A stretch of 8,467 nucleotides of DNA from Gemmatimonadota bacterium (GTDB lineage Bacteria; GCA-2686955): positions 1-8,467 of the forward strand of contig NYZA01000210.1 of NCBI GenBank assembly GCA_002686955.1. The letters run 5' to 3'. Below are positions 1 to 8,467 of this stretch, one piece after another. The notes under the pieces were generated by a model, which was not told the DNA's origin, ran no database searches, and was given only the letters and a program-made list of their open reading frames with translations. How positions within the stretch are numbered: position 1 is the first letter of the stretch; every line of letters starts with the position of its first letter. The position numbers were made by a program, and so were the translations under genes.

Positions 1-173
1 TCTCACGAGATTCCTGCTGCGACCGCACATCTCCCTGCCCTGCCGGCACTTCCCACCGTTTCGCCTTGTGCGACGTAGCACCACTACGCCTCCGCGTCGA
101 ACCGGCGCGAAGCACCGGCAGGACAAGAACCTGCACGGTCTCGCTACGGAATCTCGTGAGATATCCGGGCTAG
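1..173. repeat. Palindromic MITE-like repeat, copy 1
   Basis: Seen: the first 14 bases (TCTCACGAGATTCC) recur as a perfect inverted copy at 148-161, and the stretch between folds as an imperfect hairpin. It has further arms at 39-46 (CCTGCCGG) with 115-122 and an apex of CGTAG (74-78) with CTACG (84-88) around a 5-nt loop. Positions 36-173 match the reverse complement of 8330-8467 without gaps. Bases 36-117 differ at one position (107), while 118-173 differ at 15 of 56. Homology ends at CTAGCCCGGA (rc of 164-173). The window starts inside the left arm, so the left edge is missing. The right part overlaps the last nine codons and stop of the dehydrogenase gene. Inference: a non-coding foldback or miniature inverted-repeat element present in several genomic copies. 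It may also act as a transcription stop downstream of the gene. No transposase is present, and the family is not identified. Confidence 0.85.
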
Positions 174-1106
174 GTCGATAGGCTCGTTTCCGCCTTTGTC
201 GGTTCCGTAGTTAACGTTTGCGATGATCGGAGCCATGGCGGCGACAATATCGACCGGATGTGTCGTCTCCTCGAATGAGGTGATAGAGGGCCAAGCCTCT
301 CGCACTGCCTCCGGCGAGATTCGGCGGCCGATCCGGAAGGTCTTTCCCGCGGCGCGCTCCCAGCGCAACTTCGCGAAGAACCCGCCTCCCACCTCGAAAA
401 GCGCTCCGCTTTCCTCGCAGCTCTCGTGGCAAAGAAAGGCAATCAAGGCGCTGACATCTTTGGGATCGAGCGCCGCGACCAACTCCGCAGGAAGCACTTT
501 CTCCGTGAGTCGCGATGCGGCTACAGGCGCGATGGCGTTGACCAGGATGTTCCGTCTTCTACCCTCGATCGCCAGAGTCCGTGCCATCCCGAACACTCCG
601 AGCTTGGCGGCGCTGTAGTTCGCTTGTCCGAAATTGCCGTAGATGCCAGCGGCGGAGGAGGTGTTGACGATGCGGCCGTACTCTTGATCGCGCATGTGCG
701 GCCACGCTGCACGTGTGACTTTGAAACAGCCTCGCAAGTGAATCGCTTGGATTCGGTTCCAGTCCTCGTCCGTCATCTTGGCGAAGCTCTGGTCGCGTAC
801 GATTCCTGCGTTGTTGACGACGACATCGACTCGACCGAAGGTGTCCAGCGCACATTCGATAATCTTTTCCCCCACTTCGACCGAGTCGTAGCTGGCCACC
901 GCATCGCCGCCGCCATCCTTGATCTCTTCCACTACACGATCGGCCACTTCGGATGAGCCACCATCACCGAAGGCATCACCACCCGGATCATTGACCACGA
1001 CTGAAGCCCCGCGCTGCCCCAAGAGCCGGGCGTGGCTCCTGCCCAGCCCGTTCCCCGCGCCGGTGATCACTGCGACTTTCTGATCAAAACGCAATTCACT
1101 GGCCAT
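144..1106 (-). CDS. Short-chain dehydrogenase, (3R)-hydroxyacyl-CoA dehydrogenase type (MFE-2-like)
   Basis: A 320-residue cytosolic NAD(P)-dependent oxidoreductase of the classical SDR family. The Rossmann glycine motif TGAGNGLG is at residues 15-22 and NNAG at 98-101. The catalytic set is Ser151, Tyr164 and Lys168 (YSAAK), so the active site is complete. The C-terminal third (LCHESCEESGALFEVGGG, then KLRWERAAG and a PEAVREAW helix) resembles the dehydrogenase domain of peroxisomal multifunctional enzyme type 2, which oxidises (3R)-hydroxyacyl-CoA to 3-ketoacyl-CoA. The hydratase and SCP2 domains of MFE-2 are absent. The ATG is preceded by GGAG about 9 nt upstream, inside the end of the CoA-transferase gene 2 nt away, indicating co-transcription and probable translational coupling. 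Odd: the last nine codons (LARISHEIP) and the TAG lie in the terminal repeat, so the native C-terminus may have been replaced. Substrate is inferred from family only; general SDR function is secure. Confidence 0.92.
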   Translation of the reverse strand: MASELRFDQKVAVITGAGNGLGRSHARLLGQRGASVVVNDPGGDAFGDGGSSEVADRVVEEIKDGGGDAVASYDSVEVGEKIIECALDTFGRVDVVVNNAGIVRDQSFAKMTDEDWNRIQAIHLRGCFKVTRAAWPHMRDQEYGRIVNTSSAAGIYGNFGQANYSAAKLGVFGMARTLAIEGRRRNILVNAIAPVAASRLTEKVLPAELVAALDPKDVSALIAFLCHESCEESGALFEVGGGFFAKLRWERAAGKTFRIGRRISPEAVREAWPSITSFEETTHPVDIVAAMAPIIANVNYGTDKGGNEPIDLARISHEIP

Positions 1107-1108
1107 GG

Positions 1109-2497
1109 TCAGAAGCTCCGAATCGCCTCATCGTGTGGAATGAATCCAGGGACGCGTCCATCCAAGGTGCCGTCTGGACGGTGAAATGCGGCATTGTCGT
1201 GAATCATGCGGAGCAGTTTCGAGCGCTGATCCGGATGAGCCAGATGCGCGATTCCGACGGCGCGTTCACCCAAGCTCAGTCCGCGAGGATCGAACGCTCC
1301 ATACTCCGTGACGATGATCACCTGATCTGCGGCGATCGCCGTAGTCGTGATGCCCGCGGGGCAACAATCGACGATCTTCGGCACCCCTGCAACTGTTGTC
1401 GACTTCAGCGCGATGATCGCGACACCCTGCTCTGAGTATTGGGCACCGCGAATGAAGTCCGCTTGCCCTCCCACCCCGCTGTATACCTTGCGCGCTTGGA
1501 GCGAGTCGGCCCAGATGTTGCCGTGGAGATCAACGCCCATCGCTCCGTTTATCGCCACCATGCGCGGTTGGTCCGCGATCCGAAACACACTGTTGGTATA
1601 GTCGCAGGAGCGGCTCTGAATCGCGCTGTTGAAATGCAGCCAGCCGTAGCCCGCACGGTCCTCGGCAAGGAAGATCGATGAAATGGAGCAGTTGATCGCC
1701 GGCTTCCAGCGGTTTGAGACAACACCGTGCTGGATCAATCGCGCCATTGCGCTTGAAAACAGCTCGGTATGAATCGCAAGGTCCTTTACCCCTCTTCTCA
1801 GTATTGCTGCCGTGACCGCCTCGGGAACTTCGCCGATGCCGTACTGGAGGGTGGATCCGGGCGCTTGCCCCGATCCGTCTTCGATGTAGAGCGCGGCGAT
1901 GATCTCGGCGATCTTGACGGCCCGTTCGTCCGGCTCACGAACCGGGCTGGCCGGAAGCGAATAGTCCGATTCGACCAGGTAGTCGATGTAGGATTCCGGA
2001 ATTGTGGATCCAAGCACGAAAGGCATCTGAGCGTTTCGCTCGGCGATGATGGTTCCGCCCTTCGCTCTCGCGAACTCGATCGCTGGTAGAACCGCTTCAA
2101 CCGTAGTTCCCAGGCTGTAGTTGCCGCCAGGATCGGGTCCGCTCACGGAGAGCAATACCGCATCTATCCCCCCGGCGCGAACGAGGTGACGAGGAATCTC
2201 GGAGAGGTGAACGGGATGGTACTTTGCGGATCCGCGGTTGACGGCTTCCTTGGAGAGTGCGCCGTTAAAGATCACTCTGTGCGTCAGAGTCTGGCAGCGT
2301 TCAGTGGAGAAAAGACCATCCAAGCCCTCACCTAGAAGTAGTACGCTGTAGAGGTCGATCTCCTTGATCGACAGATCGCTCGCGAGTTGACCCAGCAGGC
2401 TGCGGGGAGTAGCGGCGTTTCCCGAGGTGTAGAGAACACTTCCGGGAGGGATCACCGAGCGATTTATGGCGTCTGCTACATCGGATACGGTTTTCAT
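1109..2497 (-). CDS. Acetyl-CoA hydrolase/transferase family CoA-transferase (4-hydroxybutyrate CoA-transferase-like)
   Basis: A 462-residue cytosolic family I CoA-transferase that would move CoA between acyl-CoA and a free acid through a glutamyl-CoA thioester. The length is typical of the single-chain acetyl-CoA hydrolase/4-hydroxybutyrate CoA-transferase group. The N-terminal half carries SVSGPDPGGNYSLG (117-130), a family-like segment. The C-terminal half begins with YGIGEVPEAV (219-228), the conserved glycine loop. Glu245 in IHTELFS (242-248) aligns with the nucleophilic glutamate of this family, and VTEYGAFDPRGLSLGERA (about 389-406) is the family's C-terminal signature. The ATG start has no good Shine-Dalgarno; the nearest purine run (AAGGAAG) is about 25 nt upstream. 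No better in-frame start is visible just upstream. It is the first gene of a pair with the dehydrogenase (2-nt gap), suggesting activation of an organic acid followed by hydroxyacyl-CoA oxidation. The acid substrate (acetate, butyrate, 4-hydroxybutyrate or other) cannot be decided. Confidence 0.92.
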   Translation of the reverse strand: MKTVSDVADAINRSVIPPGSVLYTSGNAATPRSLLGQLASDLSIKEIDLYSVLLLGEGLDGLFSTERCQTLTHRVIFNGALSKEAVNRGSAKYHPVHLSEIPRHLVRAGGIDAVLLSVSGPDPGGNYSLGTTVEAVLPAIEFARAKGGTIIAERNAQMPFVLGSTIPESYIDYLVESDYSLPASPVREPDERAVKIAEIIAALYIEDGSGQAPGSTLQYGIGEVPEAVTAAILRRGVKDLAIHTELFSSAMARLIQHGVVSNRWKPAINCSISSIFLAEDRAGYGWLHFNSAIQSRSCDYTNSVFRIADQPRMVAINGAMGVDLHGNIWADSLQARKVYSGVGGQADFIRGAQYSEQGVAIIALKSTTVAGVPKIVDCCPAGITTTAIAADQVIIVTEYGAFDPRGLSLGERAVGIAHLAHPDQRSKLLRMIHDNAAFHRPDGTLDGRVPGFIPHDEAIRSF

Positions 2498-2825
2498 TGT
2501 GGCGTCGAATCCGGGCGACCGGGCTTCCTTTCGCTACCGTCGCTCAAAACAGGTTAGATGACCATCTGAGAAAGCGACCTCGAAGCGAACCGAAAGGAAG
2601 GGGCGTAGACAATCGGCGATGCTGAATATCGCGATCGGCCCTTCTGCTCGCTCCAGAGTTCGCGCCAGTCGCTCATAGAAGCTCCGACCCGGGCCAGTGG
2701 GGCGAACCGGCCGGTAGAGGTAATTGCGATCAATCCGGCAAACAGGTCGTCCTCGCCGGAAGATCGCTCAGCTGTGGGGAGGGGCGATCTCGCCTTCCGA
2801 AATGTCGAGTTCTCACCCATGACAA
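2498..2825. other. Intergenic stretch between parE and the CoA-transferase gene
   Basis: About 330 nt with no recognised gene. On the minus strand an ATG at 2820-2818, 5 nt after the parE stop, opens an 88-codon frame ending at 2554. Its translation is serine- and arginine-rich, without a recognisable motif, and I do not call it. A second minus frame (2767-2534) looks more protein-like and is listed separately. I see no stem followed by a T tract for either flanking gene. A promoter for the CoA-transferase/dehydrogenase pair should lie here or upstream, but no clear -35/-10 pair stands out. Confidence 0.5.
2534..2767 (-). pseudogene. Possible remnant of a small unidentified coding region
   Basis: Between an in-frame TGA (2770-2768) and a TAG (2536-2534) there is a 77-codon open frame without an ATG, GTG or TTG near its beginning. 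Its translation reads like a folded protein: YLYRPVRPTGPGRSFYERL, then AEGPIAIFSIADCLRPFL, then SVRFEVAFSDGHLTCFERR. It alternates hydrophobic and charged residues, unlike the serine-rich overlapping frame. I do not recognise the family. It could be the 3' part of a decayed or frameshifted gene, a small gene with an unusual start, or chance in GC-rich DNA. The TAG falls about 37 nt before the CoA-transferase ATG. Confidence is low because no homologue could be compared. Confidence 0.25.
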
Positions 2826-4751
2826 TCACAGATCGAGATCCCCGGCACTCGTAGCGTTCGCCATGATGAATTCGTAGCGAACGCGAGCGTCCTTGCCGAG
2901 CAGACCGGCCATCGTGGTCTCGGTCACGAGGCGATTCTCGTCGTCTATCCACACTTTGAGGATGCGGCGATGTACTGGGTCTAGCGTCGTCGCGAAGAGA
3001 ACATCCGGATCCATCTCGCCCAAACCTTTGAAACGGCTGATCTGAGGTTTCAAGTTGGCGGGTGCGCCGGAGACGGCTGTATCGAGCTCGGAATCCGTCA
3101 GCGCCCACACCGTCTCCTTGCCGAGCTTGATTCGATAGAGCGGCGGCTGAGCCAGAAACACATGCCCACCGTCGATCAGAGGACGCAGGTAGCGATAAAA
3201 AAACGCCAGCAGAAGAGTCGATATGTGATGGCCATCAGAGTCCGCATCCATGAGCAAGATGACCCTGTGGTACCGCAGTCGCCTCGGATCGAACTGATCT
3301 CCAATTCCGCAGCCGAGCGCCTTCAACACGTCGCCGAGCTCTTTGTTGGCCATGACCTTCGCTCTCGTGGCCTGCTCGCTGTTCAACACCTTGCCCCGTA
3401 AGGGCAGTATCGCCTGAACGCGGCGATCTCGTCCCTGCTTGGCGCTTCCGCCCGCGGAATCCCCTTCGACGAGGAAAAGCTCGCATTCCGTCGGGTCGGT
3501 GGAAGAGCAGTCGGCGAGTTTGCCCGGCAGATTGAGCCGATGGCTAACCGTGGGTTTCTTGCGGGCTGTCTTGGCCGCAGCTCTACTCGCGGCACGGGCG
3601 CGCGCAGCATAGATCGCCCGGGTGGCTACGGCCTCGCCCATGCTCGGATGGTGATGAAGGTGCTGTTCGAGCTGGCGTCCGATCGCTCCGGCCAGAAGGC
3701 CTCGAATCTCGGGGTTGTTGAGCTTCTCTTTGGTTTGTCCCTGGAACTGCGGCTCCAATAGAAACACACTGACTACACCGATGAGTCCCTCCCTGAAATC
3801 GTCCGGAGTCAATGTCAGTCCCCGTGGTATCAGCTCGTGGGTTTCCATGTAGTTTCGGAGCGCCTTCGCGACCGCTTCGAGGAGACCGCGCTCGTGGGTC
3901 CCTCCGTCGATGGTCGGAATGCCGTTCACGTAGCTACGCACGTCGGTCTGAACCTCTTCGGTCCATGTGAGCGCGATCTCGGCTCGGTTGATTCCGTGTC
4001 CGTCGTTACCTATCTGGCTGGCTTCCCAAACAAAGGGTTCCGGATGGACCGGCCTGCCACCACTCCTTCCGACCAGGTTTCCCACGAGTGCCGCGACGCC
4101 GTTTTCGTGTCGGTATTCGTCTAAAGCACCGGTCATTCGGTTCTTGAAGACGATTCGCAGCCCCTTGTTTAAGTACGTCTTGATCTCGAGGTGGTCGGCG
4201 ATCAGTGCGGCGTCGAAATCGCTGCCCGTGAAGATCTGTGGATCCGGGCGGAAGAAGAAGGTCGTTCCGGTTCCTCTCGCCGCTCCGCCAGCTTTCACCG
4301 GTCCCCGCGGCTCGCCGCGTCGGTATTCCTGGCTGAAACGGCGCCCATCCCTCCGCACCTCTACGCGCAGGTCCACGCTTAGGGCGTTGACTACACTTGC
4401 TCCTACGCCGTGCAGCCCCCCCGACGTGAGATAGTTGGCACGATCGAACTTCCCTCCGGCATGGAGCGTCGTGAGGATCACCTCGAGAGCGCTCTTCCCT
4501 TCCTTCTTGTGGCGGTCGACCGGAATTCCTCGGCCGTTGTCCTCAACCGAGCAGCTCTGGCCATCTTCGTGCAGACTGACCACTATTGAGGACGCGTAGC
4601 CGTTCATTGCTTCATCGACAGCGTTGTCGACGACCTCCCATAGCAGATGATGCAGCCCTGCTTTGCCAGTGCCTCCGATGTACATGCCGGGCCGCCGGCG
4701 CACAGGCTCCAGTCCTTCGAGGACGGTAATGTCTTGTGCACTATAGACCAT
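2826..4751 (-). CDS. parE: DNA topoisomerase IV subunit B (type IIA, ATPase/TOPRIM subunit)
   Basis: Numbering from the ATG at 4751 (641 residues). This subunit binds and hydrolyses ATP and supplies the metal-binding TOPRIM part of the cleavage centre; it works with ParC as an A2B2 enzyme. The GHKL ATPase has EVVDNAVDEA with catalytic Glu39 and Asn43, DNGRG at 71-75, and the ATP-lid glycine run TSGGLHGVGAS (109-119). The transducer lysine is in QTKEKL (339-344). TOPRIM has EGDSAGG (429-435), PLRGKVLN (450-457) and DADSDGHH (502-509), followed by RFKGLGEM (573-580). It lacks the roughly 170-residue insert of enterobacterial GyrB and ends soon after the TOPRIM tail. The family alone does not separate ParE from short GyrB; I prefer ParE because the partner A subunit looks ParC-like. 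A TTG at 4766 would add MWKDL, but the ATG has a GGAAAG motif 5 nt upstream and gives the usual MxYSAxDI-type N-terminus. It lies 22 nt downstream of parC. Confidence 0.93.
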   Translation of the reverse strand: MVYSAQDITVLEGLEPVRRRPGMYIGGTGKAGLHHLLWEVVDNAVDEAMNGYASSIVVSLHEDGQSCSVEDNGRGIPVDRHKKEGKSALEVILTTLHAGGKFDRANYLTSGGLHGVGASVVNALSVDLRVEVRRDGRRFSQEYRRGEPRGPVKAGGAARGTGTTFFFRPDPQIFTGSDFDAALIADHLEIKTYLNKGLRIVFKNRMTGALDEYRHENGVAALVGNLVGRSGGRPVHPEPFVWEASQIGNDGHGINRAEIALTWTEEVQTDVRSYVNGIPTIDGGTHERGLLEAVAKALRNYMETHELIPRGLTLTPDDFREGLIGVVSVFLLEPQFQGQTKEKLNNPEIRGLLAGAIGRQLEQHLHHHPSMGEAVATRAIYAARARAASRAAAKTARKKPTVSHRLNLPGKLADCSSTDPTECELFLVEGDSAGGSAKQGRDRRVQAILPLRGKVLNSEQATRAKVMANKELGDVLKALGCGIGDQFDPRRLRYHRVILLMDADSDGHHISTLLLAFFYRYLRPLIDGGHVFLAQPPLYRIKLGKETVWALTDSELDTAVSGAPANLKPQISRFKGLGEMDPDVLFATTLDPVHRRILKVWIDDENRLVTETTMAGLLGKDARVRYEFIMANATSAGDLDL

Positions 4752-4756
4752 CAGAT

Positions 4757-4762
4757 CTTTCC
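4757..4762 (-). promoter_or_regulatory. Ribosome binding site supporting the ATG start of parE
   Basis: The minus strand reads GGAAAG with a 5-nt spacer before the ATG at 4751. The alternative TTG at 4766 has no purine-rich motif at a suitable distance. This favours the shorter protein and places the site in the 22-nt gap after the parC stop. Confidence 0.55.
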
Positions 4763-4773
4763 ACAATCGTCAT

Positions 4774-7176
4774 TCAGAATCCAAGGTCGCCTTGCTCGAC
4801 CGTTTTGGCTCCACTTCCCTCCCCCGATTCCATTTCCTCGTCTGCTGTCAAGTCGATCCGAACCTCCACCGGATCGAATCGACACGACACGAGCTTGCCC
4901 CTCTTGAGGATCTCTCTGCCCTTGCCTCCGCGACGAGTCGGTTGGTACTTCGTCGTGCGTACGATCTCAGTTCGACCGCGTGCGGTCTGCACTTCGAGTC
5001 CATCTCGCGCCTTTGTGGACAGATTGAATCCGAGCACGCGATCGAAGTCGTTCAGCTTTATTGCTCGCACACCTCGTCCCGGGCCTTTCAGGATGTTGAT
5101 CTCGTCAACGTAGAACACGAGAGCCCGGCCCCATACCGTCGCCAGCGCGATGGTCTCTTCGTCGCTTTCATCGGAAACCATGACGCGAACTACGCCGTCG
5201 TCCGGGACTGAAGGGTCGAATCGGACGAACACCCGTCCCTTGCGATTCGAGGGCTCTGCAAAGGCGGAGAGGCCCGTTCGCAGACATGAGCCTCCTCGGG
5301 TCAGAGCTACGAGGTAAGGCGGAGGAGGTAGATCCGATTCGCGCGCCGCCTCGATCTCCTCGCGCGTAATCTCTGGAAGCCCGCGTCGATCGGTTACAGC
5401 AACGCCAACGATCCGTTCCTTGTCCGCGAGGTCGAATCGGCGGTGAATCGGTTCTCCGTATCCGGGTGTCTGTATTAGATCGGAAACCCTTGCGGTATAG
5501 GCTCTTCCGCGGTCGCTGAAAAAAACTGCCGATTCCTTGGTGCGGGCGGGAAAGGCCCACATGACCTCGTCACCCTCACGAACCCTGATTGCCCCGATCT
5601 CGGTGTAGCTCTTCTGGCGCTTCAGCCACCCGTCGCGAGTCACAATTACTCGCGCGTCCTCGTCGAGTAGATAGTCCTCTTCGCTGTACGATGCTTCCTT
5701 GATTCCTCCGTTTGGAAGCGAGGTACGGCGATCGTCGCGGTAGAGCCTGTCCAGCTCCATCAATTCGTTTCTGACGAGATCCCAGCGTGGACTCCGTCCG
5801 CGAAGGAGGCGGCGAATGCGGGAAGCCTGTTTCTGCTTCTCTTCCAGCTCTTCGACGATCGAGCCGATCTCCATCTTCGACAAACGGTAGAGTCGGATTT
5901 CGAGGATGGCCTCGGCTTGAGGATCGCTCAAGTCGAAGCGGACCCTCAGCTTATGATGAGCGTCTTGGCGATCGTCGGCACCGCGAATCAGAGCGATCGC
6001 CTCATCGAGGGCATCGAAGACGATCGCAAACCCCTCGAGTATGTGGATCCGTTCGTCCAGCTTGCGAAGGTCGAACTCCAGGCGTCGGGTGAGCACCTCG
6101 AATCGAAAGTCCAAAAACGATCGAAGCGCGGTCTTCAGGTCGACTCTTCTGGGCACGAGTCGGCCCGTCTCGGCTTCCGGCGTAAGACAAGTGAGATTGA
6201 CGTGAAATCTCGATCGAAGCGCAGTGTGTTTGTATAGGTAGGCGACGGCCGCGCCGGGATCGGAGCCTCGCTTCAGCTCGCAAATGATCCGCACGGAATC
6301 TGTGGATTCGTCTCGAACATCGACGAGCTGGGGGACTTTGCCTTCGATAATATGTTGTGCGATCGATTCGACGAGCGATGATTTGTTCACGTTGAAGGGC
6401 AACGAAGTGATCACCACCGCCCGACCGCCCTCCACCCGTCCCACTTCCAACTCCCCTCGTAATTCGATCGGCCCCTCACCAGTCTCATAGATCTTCTGAA
6501 GCTCGCTTGCCGGCGTAGTAATCCTCCCTGCCGTGGGGAAATCGGGGGCGGGGATATGCTCCATCAACTCAGCGCAGGAGAGGGCTGGATCCTCAATGAG
6601 TGCCACCAGGCCATCGATGACCTCACCCAAATTGTGAGGGGGAATGCTCGTCGCCATCCCGACGGCGATCCCCTGCGCACCGTTGACCAAGAGGTGGGGA
6701 ATCTGCGCCGGCAAAACCACCGGTTCTCGGTACGTTCCTTCGAAGTTGTCTCGAAAATCGACGGTCTCCTTCTTCAGCTCGCGCAGCAGCTCGGCTGAAA
6801 CGCCTTCGAGACGCGCTTCCGTGTAGCGCATAGCGGCGGCGTCGTCTCCGTCGAGACTCCCGAAGTTTCCTTGCCCATCGACAAGTGGGTAACGCATCGA
6901 CCATGGCTGAGCGAGGCGCACGAGAGCATCGTAGATCGACTGGTCCCCGTGCGGGTGGTATTTCCCCATGACCTCGCCAACGACGGCCGCGCATTTTCTG
7001 AATCGGGTCTCCGAAGAGAGCTTCAGATCGTTGAACATCGCATAGAGGATGCGCCGCTGGACCGGTTTGAGCCCATCGCGTACATCAGGCAGCGCGCGGC
7101 TGGTAATGACGCTCAGGGCGTAGTTCAGATAGCGCTCGCGTGTCGTTTCGTGGAGCGCGACGGTCTCTGTCGCCAT
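4774..7176 (-). CDS. parC: DNA topoisomerase IV subunit A (type IIA, breakage-reunion subunit)
   Basis: An 800-residue subunit that cuts and rejoins DNA through a tyrosine. The winged-helix domain has [20 protein letters not shown] (26-45), [18 protein letters not shown] (73-90) and [13 protein letters not shown] (113-125) with catalytic Arg117-Tyr118. The tower and coiled-coil region follows, ending in the leucine-rich [20 protein letters not shown] beta-pinwheel C-terminal domain starts at about residue 510 ([19 protein letters not shown]). The first blade lacks the GyrA box that gyrase uses for DNA wrapping, which argues for ParC. A box-like QPTRRGGKG occurs instead at 745-753, near the C-terminus, followed by an acidic tail. 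The quinolone-contact position (Ser83 in E. coli GyrA) is Gln79 and the companion acid is Asp83. The ATG is preceded by GGAG with a 6-nt spacer. First gene of a parC-parE operon. Gyrase A is the alternative, since some lineages name such pairs gyrase. Confidence 0.92.
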
Positions 7177-7394
7177 TCTGTCTCCGTCGATCGGGGCGGA
7201 TCTTCTGCGATGGGGGCGAGTCTACTCTACCCATTCGGACGCAGCCGGCTCAACGCCGAGATCTTCCACCCATCTCCCGCCGCAGTATACTGCTGCGCGG
7301 TGGAGGACCTCGGTCTCGTTGGTTTCCCACAACGGAGCGAGATCGTCCGTGACCCACAGCGCTCTCTAGGGAAAGCCCTTGTAAGGACCTATCC
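7177..7394. other. Divergent upstream region of parC
   Basis: Some 218 nt between the parC start (minus) and the activase remnant (plus). I see no coding frame with recognisable content. It holds the GGAG ribosome binding site of parC (7182-7185, minus) and the GCAGTATACTGC palindrome. It should contain the parC-parE promoter, although no strong -35/-10 pair is evident. In the activase reading frame there is a TGA at 7350-7352 and no start codon between it and the conserved WIGLDLG motif. Confidence 0.5.
7282..7293. promoter_or_regulatory. 12-bp perfect palindrome with TATACT, possible operator or shared -10
   Basis: GCAGTATACTGC is self-complementary. It places a TATACT (-10-like) on both strands about 110 bp upstream of the parC start. 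It is flanked by the short arms TCCACC (about 7265) and GGTGGA (about 7299), giving a wider imperfect dyad. No convincing -35 hexamer accompanies it on either strand, so a regulator-binding site, a weak divergent promoter or chance are all possible. Confidence 0.25.
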
Positions 7395-8329
7395 AACAAC
7401 GCGTTCTGGATTGGCCTCGATCTTGGCTCCGTCGCCGCGAAGGCGGTAGTTTTGAATCCTCAGGGCGGGTCTCGAGAATGGAACAGGACCGGTCCGAGGG
7501 CTCCCTCGCCGGCATGATCGAGGGGTTGATACTCCGTTCGCTGGAGGGGATCTCCGATCCCGTGAGAATCGGGATCACCGGTGGCGGCAAGGCGCTCTTC
7601 GCCGGGTTCGAAGCTGCCCTGATCGAGACCGACGTGGTCTCCACCGCCGCGCCGTAGCCGCCGGATTCCCGAACGCCCGAGGACTCATCGAAATCGGGGT
7701 GCATCGCTCGAAGTGGATCCGTCTCGGAGAAAGAGGGGCCCTCGAATCGTTCTCTCTGAACGATCAGTGTGCGGCGGGATCGGACGCCTTCTTGTAGCAG
7801 CAGGCCGGTCGACTCGGCATCGACATCGAGGAGCTTTCCCATATGCGGCCAGTGCGCCTCGGGCAGCCAGCATCGCCGGCCGATGCGCGGTTTTCGCGAA
7901 GTCGGACATGATCCACCAGCAACAGAAGGGCACCCCGGTGGCGGAGGTCGCCTATGGGCTGTGTCTGGCGATTGCCCAGAATTCCCGGGCGACATTGCTG
8001 CGGGGAACCGAGCTCGTGACACCGATCGTGCTCGTTGGAGGGGGCGCATTGAATCCGGGGCTCGTCCGGGCATTCCAAGAGGTGTTCGATTTTTCCGAAT
8101 CCGATCTCATTCAGGTGGACCATCCCCCTTTCTGCGCGGCCCAAGGGGTCGCGATAGCCGCGCGCGAGCGATCGACCGCCGCGACGAGACCGGAAGTGCT
8201 TGGTCACCTGAGCTCGCAATCCGGTCGGGCCTTCAGGGCATCCGCACGCGTGCTCCGGCCCATTCGAGGCTCCGCGCCCCCCCGGCGGCGGAGCCGATCG
8301 CCGCGACGGAAGGCACGATCCGCGCCCAT
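7395..8329 (+). pseudogene. Decayed acyl-CoA dehydratase/benzoyl-CoA reductase activase (BadF/BadG/BcrA/BcrD family)
   Basis: The intact family is a dimeric [4Fe-4S] ASKHA ATPase that powers electron transfer to 2-hydroxyacyl-CoA dehydratases or benzoyl-CoA reductases. Its motifs occur in order but in changing frames. WIGLDLGSVAAKAVVL is near 7407-7454 (frame of 7404). SLAGMIEGLIL and VRIGITGGGKAL follow at about 7499-7597 (frame shifted by one). FPNARGLIEIG, SKWIRL, LNDQCAAGSDAFL and QQAGRLGIDIEELS lie at about 7666-7839 (shifted again). AGRCAVFAKSDMIHQQQKG and IVLVGGGALNPGLVRAF lie at about 7875-8083 (third shift). A TAG at 7795-7797 stands where the family has Glu in FLEQQA. Both cluster cysteines remain (7768-7770 and 7884-7886). 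The phosphate motif GGQDSK reads GVHRSK, losing the aspartate. No start codon precedes the first motif. A final frame ends in EGTIRAHL, resembling the linker into a second activase module in tandem proteins, and stops at the repeat. The family call is secure and decay very likely; sequencing indels could add to it. Confidence 0.85.
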
Positions 8330-8467
8330 CTAGCCCGGACTTCTCACCGGATTTCGTCGCGAGACGGTGTAGGTTCGTGCGGATTCGGTGCTTCGTGCCG
8401 GTTCGACGCGGAGGCGTAGTGGTGCTACGTCGCACAAGGCGAAACGGTGGGAAGTGCCGGCAGGGCA
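8330..8467. repeat. Palindromic MITE-like repeat, copy 2 (inverted, cut by window end)
   Basis: This is the inverted partner of copy 1: position q here corresponds to position 8503 minus q there. The inner 82 bases (8386-8467) carry a single mismatch, at 8396. The outer 56 bases (8330-8385) carry 15 substitutions and no gap. The edge CTAGCCCGGA (8330-8339) is identical in both copies. The TCTCACGAGATTCC arm of copy 1 reads TCTCACCGGATTTC here. The remaining arm would lie beyond the window. It begins directly after the activase pseudogene, in the same orientation relative to that gene as copy 1 has to the dehydrogenase gene. Confidence 0.85.

Follow-up and report, generated by a model that had tools for sequence, protein, structure and literature searches.

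Dispersed palindromic elements with IS1380-type ends at both ends of a Gemmatimonadota contig

IS1380 insertion sequences (IS) are relatives of the eukaryotic piggyBac elements. The repeats at the ends of the stretch of DNA analysed here (the window, 8,467 bp, the entire contig C210) belong to an element that resembles IS1380-family IS (NF033539; the ISPa33-like element; the IS on pKF715A) in its outer 16 bp and in a 4-bp CTAG/YTAR duplication, but differs in being ~177 bp long, non-coding and palindromic throughout, with an interior unrelated beyond the outer 16 to 17 bp. For IS1247, of the same IS family, the listed duplication is 5 bp (PMC3281130). ERIC, YPAL, NEMIS, RUP, Bcr1 and Nezha are likewise non-coding, intergenic elements of 70 to 300 bp with terminal repeats, strong secondary structure and presumed mobilization by a resident transposase (PMC3733652); as far as their descriptions go, they differ in ends and target, and the present element is found in metagenome-assembled genomes (MAGs) of several phyla instead of one genus. 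The Tn3-derived TIMEs are also non-autonomous inverted-repeat elements that form mosaics, but they depend on a Tn3 transposase and produce 5- or 6-bp duplications (PMC4133298). REP/BIME sequences with IS200/IS605-type RAYT transposases (PMC3733652) are similarly palindromic, multi-copy and intergenic, but REPs measure 20 to 40 bp, whereas the ends of the element described here are DDE-type and its target is duplicated. No paper on this element family, its terminal-repeat string or IS1380 MITEs was found in the open-licence literature. The best reading of our data is a MITE family that is new and widespread, carries IS1380-type ends and belongs to a known kind, but has an unusually conserved fold.

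Truncated copies in the window and limits of the element

The initial annotation described an inverted pair at the two ends of the window, and this pair exists: 81 of 82 core positions matched, followed by 41 of 56, both without gaps. A repeat search of the window aligned the arms at 36-173 and 8330-8467 ungapped over 138 nt with 88% complementarity (122/138), and BLAST aligned the core pair at 81/82. The similarity is far beyond chance, since the 82-base stretch recurred at 40 places (BLAST, E<=0.001) in the source MAG (G000; 4.28 Mb in 270 contigs, 84.5% complete). Its coordinates take in just part of the real unit. The copies of this MAG, read together with their flanks, all belonged to one longer unit with the ends CTAG-CCCG...CGGG-CTAG, and both repeats of the window are incomplete copies of a single dispersed ~177-bp element.

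The left copy (1-169, + strand) belongs to subfamily A and comprises element bases 9 to 177, with a match to the structure model R1 at C210:1-161; its outer 8 bases and left target duplication are gone at the contig end. The visible part of its left terminal inverted repeat (1-14, + strand) pairs at 14 of 14 positions with 148-161, within the other terminal repeat (148-169, - strand; CCCGGATATCTCACGAGATTCC when read on that strand), and a CTAG target-site duplication (170-173) is visible on this single side. The 82-bp stretch that aligns with the right copy (36-117, + strand), as located by repeat search, BLAST and copy alignment, is the common A-type interior, consisting of the apex hairpin and inner stem, and not an independent unit. 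The right copy (8334-8467, - strand) retains 134 bases, a B-type right arm (8334-8385) followed by an A-type core (8386-8467), and has lost the remaining ~43 bases at the contig end. Its terminal inverted repeat (8334-8355, + strand) reads CCCGGACTTCTCACCGGATTTC and adjoins a CTAG duplication (8330-8333), the TAG of which doubles as the stop codon of the ORF at 7713-8333. In both window copies the duplication is thus visible at one end only.

Features of the neighbouring genes were also recorded. A BcrAD/BadF-type ATPase gene (7394-8333, with PF01869 over the ORF at 7713-8333) looks decayed, its frame being broken between 7478 and 7713. At the other end, the inserted element provides the final residues and stop codon (144-173) of an SDR gene (144-1106, - strand). 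The genome also encodes a second GyrA/ParC-type protein (C133:22303-24528) with 41% identity to that of the window.

In the source genome, the element measured ~177 bp (typically 176 to 178 bp between duplications), with terminal inverted repeats of ~22 bp (CCCGSATWTCTCACSANNTTYC) and a flanking 4-bp target duplication, YTAR, which was mostly CTAG. A terminal-repeat pattern allowing up to 2 mismatches gave 100 matches, 48 forward and 52 reverse, compared to 0 for a reversed-pattern control, and the structure model gave 58 matches. With the 40 places of the 82-base stretch, these counts bear out the suggestion of many genomic copies. Identical 4-bp flanks were present in 14 of 19 two-ended copies. 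Since CTAG is the favoured target, finding it at both flanks is weak evidence by itself, but four of these copies had identical flanks other than CTAG (TTAG/TTAG twice and CTAA/CTAA twice), which shows a real 4-bp YTAR target duplication, beyond merely palindromic ends.

At least 48 solitary terminal-repeat matches lay within 200 bp of contig ends in this MAG. With so many contigs stopping inside copies, the element family is one of the main reasons for contig breaks, as had been suspected, and the ends of the window are assembly break points. Using crude gene calling, 9 of 89 junctions fell inside called genes, compared to 51 of 107 background YTAR sites; copies thus avoid genes and insertion is mostly intergenic. 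By the same gene calling, neighbouring gene pairs were convergent in 13 cases and divergent in 3. Insertion at stop codons (13/89 junctions versus 7/107 background sites, p of about 0.1) is not claimed as a preference. Very short derivatives of 50 to 57 bp, barely longer than two terminal repeats and with matching YTAR flanks, were observed at L253 (C261, 760-815) and at L118, L140, L175, L183 and L201.

The presence of two inverted copies 8 kb apart, with 82 nearly identical bases in common, had raised the idea that they drive inversion of the intervening block of parE/parC and CoA-transferase genes. No support for inversion was obtained: the window pair belongs, without special status, to a set of about 60 interchangeable copies found genome-wide in both orientations, evidence of the other orientation of the block is lacking, and no recombinase gene is present in the window. 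A sister genome, with parE and parC in the same order, departs from the window upstream of parC, where its own contigs end, and thus bears on inversion neither way. We regard inversion as highly improbable.

Subfamilies, mosaic copies and the boundary at 117/118

An alignment of 37 copies (18 full-length and 19 partial, with both window copies also included) resolved three subfamilies, A, B and C, in the source genome, in agreement with one of the initial suggestions, that of subfamilies with a common core. The competing suggestion, that the 82 bp form a functional or gene-converted core with its edge at 117/118, falls because the boundary is absent in other copies: the A-type copies C85, C108, C115 and C131 and the left window copy are nearly identical across 117/118. 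A drop in conservation occurs there only where the right window copy turns to a B-type arm. This copy has an A core followed by a B arm as in C198 and C206, and the hybrid junction at 8385/8386 reads CCGGCACGAAGCACCGAATCCGC. Further mosaics were detected in C120, C155 and C20.

The mosaic junction lies 82 bases from the contig end, at which assembly failed in the repeat, and the right copy could on that account be an assembly chimaera and no recombinant element. We consider this unlikely, as the junction string (...GGCACGAAGCACCG joined to AATCCGC...) is contained in neither parent type, B-type copies having GGCGCG before the junction and A-type copies GGCAGG after it, and as the similar mosaics C120 and C155 lie within contigs, that of C120 being 76.7 kb long. 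The sharp contrast between core and flank thus marks the point at which recombination or conversion switched the copy from one subfamily to another; an assembly chimaera is the less likely alternative.

IS1380 transposases and proposed movement of the element

The terminal repeats matched those of autonomous IS1380 elements, with both ends exact or near-exact at two loci, L226 and L215. At L226, an intact 485-aa IS1380-type transposase (PF13701, NF033539) lies between CTAG-CCCGCATTTCTCACCA and an inverted copy followed by CTAG, and the MAG that carries it (G029) had 88 matches to the element model. At L215, in another host MAG, the same ends flank an internally deleted IS1380 transposase; at L205, one end is present and the other is interrupted. 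Near-identical ends with CTAG on both sides were found in two annotated plasmid-borne IS1380 elements, that of Pseudomonas putida pKF715A (CCCGCATTTCTCACAG) and the ISPa33-like one of P. kurunegalensis (CCCGGATTTCTCATGA). Target duplications were CTAG/CTAG at L226, L215, L231, L263 and L264 and CTAA/CTAA at L206. The overlap with the IS comprised the outer 16 to 17 bases only, and the interior is no IS remnant.

A search for PF13701 in the source genome gave no match, and this absence is less telling because the MAG is 84.5% complete and breaks at repeats. The transposase was present in other host MAGs (e.g., G029, G008 and G002) and was not found in G003 and G012, host MAGs with many copies. 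Movement of copies in the lineage of the source genome by an IS1380 transposase is thus what we infer from the common ends and target. An IS701 mover, prompted by the YTAR target, was rejected, because the inspected stretch of the sole PF13546 locus (C143, L061) lacked these terminal repeats. A 1.5-kb segment (L176, 1420-2923) with two ORFs, matching ends and CTAG on both sides was rejected as an autonomous IS as it holds no transposase; it may represent either a passenger-carrying element or a pair of single ends.

Taken as a whole, we are highly confident that the element is a non-autonomous, IS1380-mobilized MITE family that forms an imperfect-palindrome hairpin and whose subfamilies exchange segments. 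An IS1380-family transposase of the CCCGSATTTCTCAYSA-end group would recognize the outer ~16 bp and either cut the element out or copy it, and the element would then be inserted at YTAR, mostly CTAG, with duplication of 4 bp and mostly between genes. The entire element is an imperfect palindrome and folds into a single long hairpin whose internal loops and apex are conserved. Swapping of segments between subfamilies A, B and C would have produced the mosaic right copy and its apparent sharp boundary.

Distribution, fold and covariation

Diverged yet strongly covarying versions of the element were detected in MAGs of Gammaproteobacteria, Acidobacteriota, Desulfobulbaceae, Eisenbacteria and Fermentibacteria. 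Model R1, whose counts are upper bounds because some copies matched on both strands, gave 110, 88, 48 and 28 matches in four MAGs other than the source, 3 to 122 in 17 further MAGs, 8 weak matches in the sister genome, 4 to 5 in two other low-count records and 0 in a Chryseobacterium genome and both plasmids. The phylum comparison consisted of one other genome, of a different genus. Taxon labels are those of the MAG records, in which binning errors are possible, but the presence of dozens of copies on separate contigs makes contamination unlikely as a general cause. A phage or plasmid origin was rejected, with no terminal-repeat match in viral contigs, no match of an A-type copy from the source genome in plasmids and no match of an Acidobacteria copy in phages. 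A version of 232 to 239 bp with a longer interior was observed in one Gammaproteobacteria MAG (G029: C581, C287, C516, C77, C67 and C514).

Each copy folds as a single long, imperfect hairpin in which internal motifs are conserved, and asymmetric internal loops and an apical hairpin recur across phyla. In a 63-pair structure examined in 25 copies, 82.6% of cells were paired, and double-sided changes occurred in 214 cells, compared to 77 in shuffles, which do not keep relatedness. The covariation score was 0.357, compared to 0.09 to 0.12 with partners slid, a control that favours the structure because the structure was derived from one of the sequences. Well-paired columns contained 74 A.C and 31 G.T mismatches; in 15 cluster representatives the numbers were 39 and 19 (p of about 0.012), and for their inner helices alone the A.C bias had a p of 0.09. 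This excess of A.C, a moderate bias, could reflect RNA-level selection on the opposite strand. On the model strand of the A3 alignment (51 elements), A.C mismatches were likewise commoner than G.T, at 192 to 65 in the raw self-alignments and with lower numbers after correction.

Such covariation, the retention of asymmetric motifs and apex across phyla and a strand bias of the kind expected from RNA folding of the opposite strand would suit a conserved structured RNA, or a DNA hairpin, with a selected role independent of its mobility. It might protect or terminate transcripts or offer a site to a host factor, and transposition would do no more than spread it. We find this reading rather doubtful, although somewhat less so than a chimaeric origin of the right copy. 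The element gave no match to Rfam models at gathering score, copies beside tandem genes were not preferentially oriented with respect to them (13 versus 8), the bias in the inner helices was limited in the representatives, and palindrome arms can match through mutation alone. The one Rfam match, to a group II intron in L131, lay elsewhere than the element.

A serious alternative that needs no selection is template switching, which by repeatedly copying one arm of the quasi-palindrome onto the other would keep the stem paired. The process is documented to make and maintain hairpin stems, and asymmetric frequencies of pairs can be explained by it (PMC8794818); it is also documented for E. coli (PMC7202029). 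The elements are 66 to 82% self-complementary along their length, which fits arm copying, but unless protected, the asymmetric internal loops should have been erased by repeated arm copying, and they are still present in diverged copies of several phyla. A purely mutational covariation is given less than an even chance, while being the most credible of the alternatives considered here. A long hairpin under selection as RNA or as folded single-stranded DNA, which would have spread into several phyla on IS1380-type ends with its fold intact, is a tentative proposal that we hold to be improbable; that the fold itself matters is an inference.

The element accounts for the end points of the window contig and of many other contigs of this MAG. 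Its diverged copies form a large natural set in which selection on the fold may be separated from mutational matching of palindrome arms, and the IS1380 family would gain a widespread non-autonomous partner.
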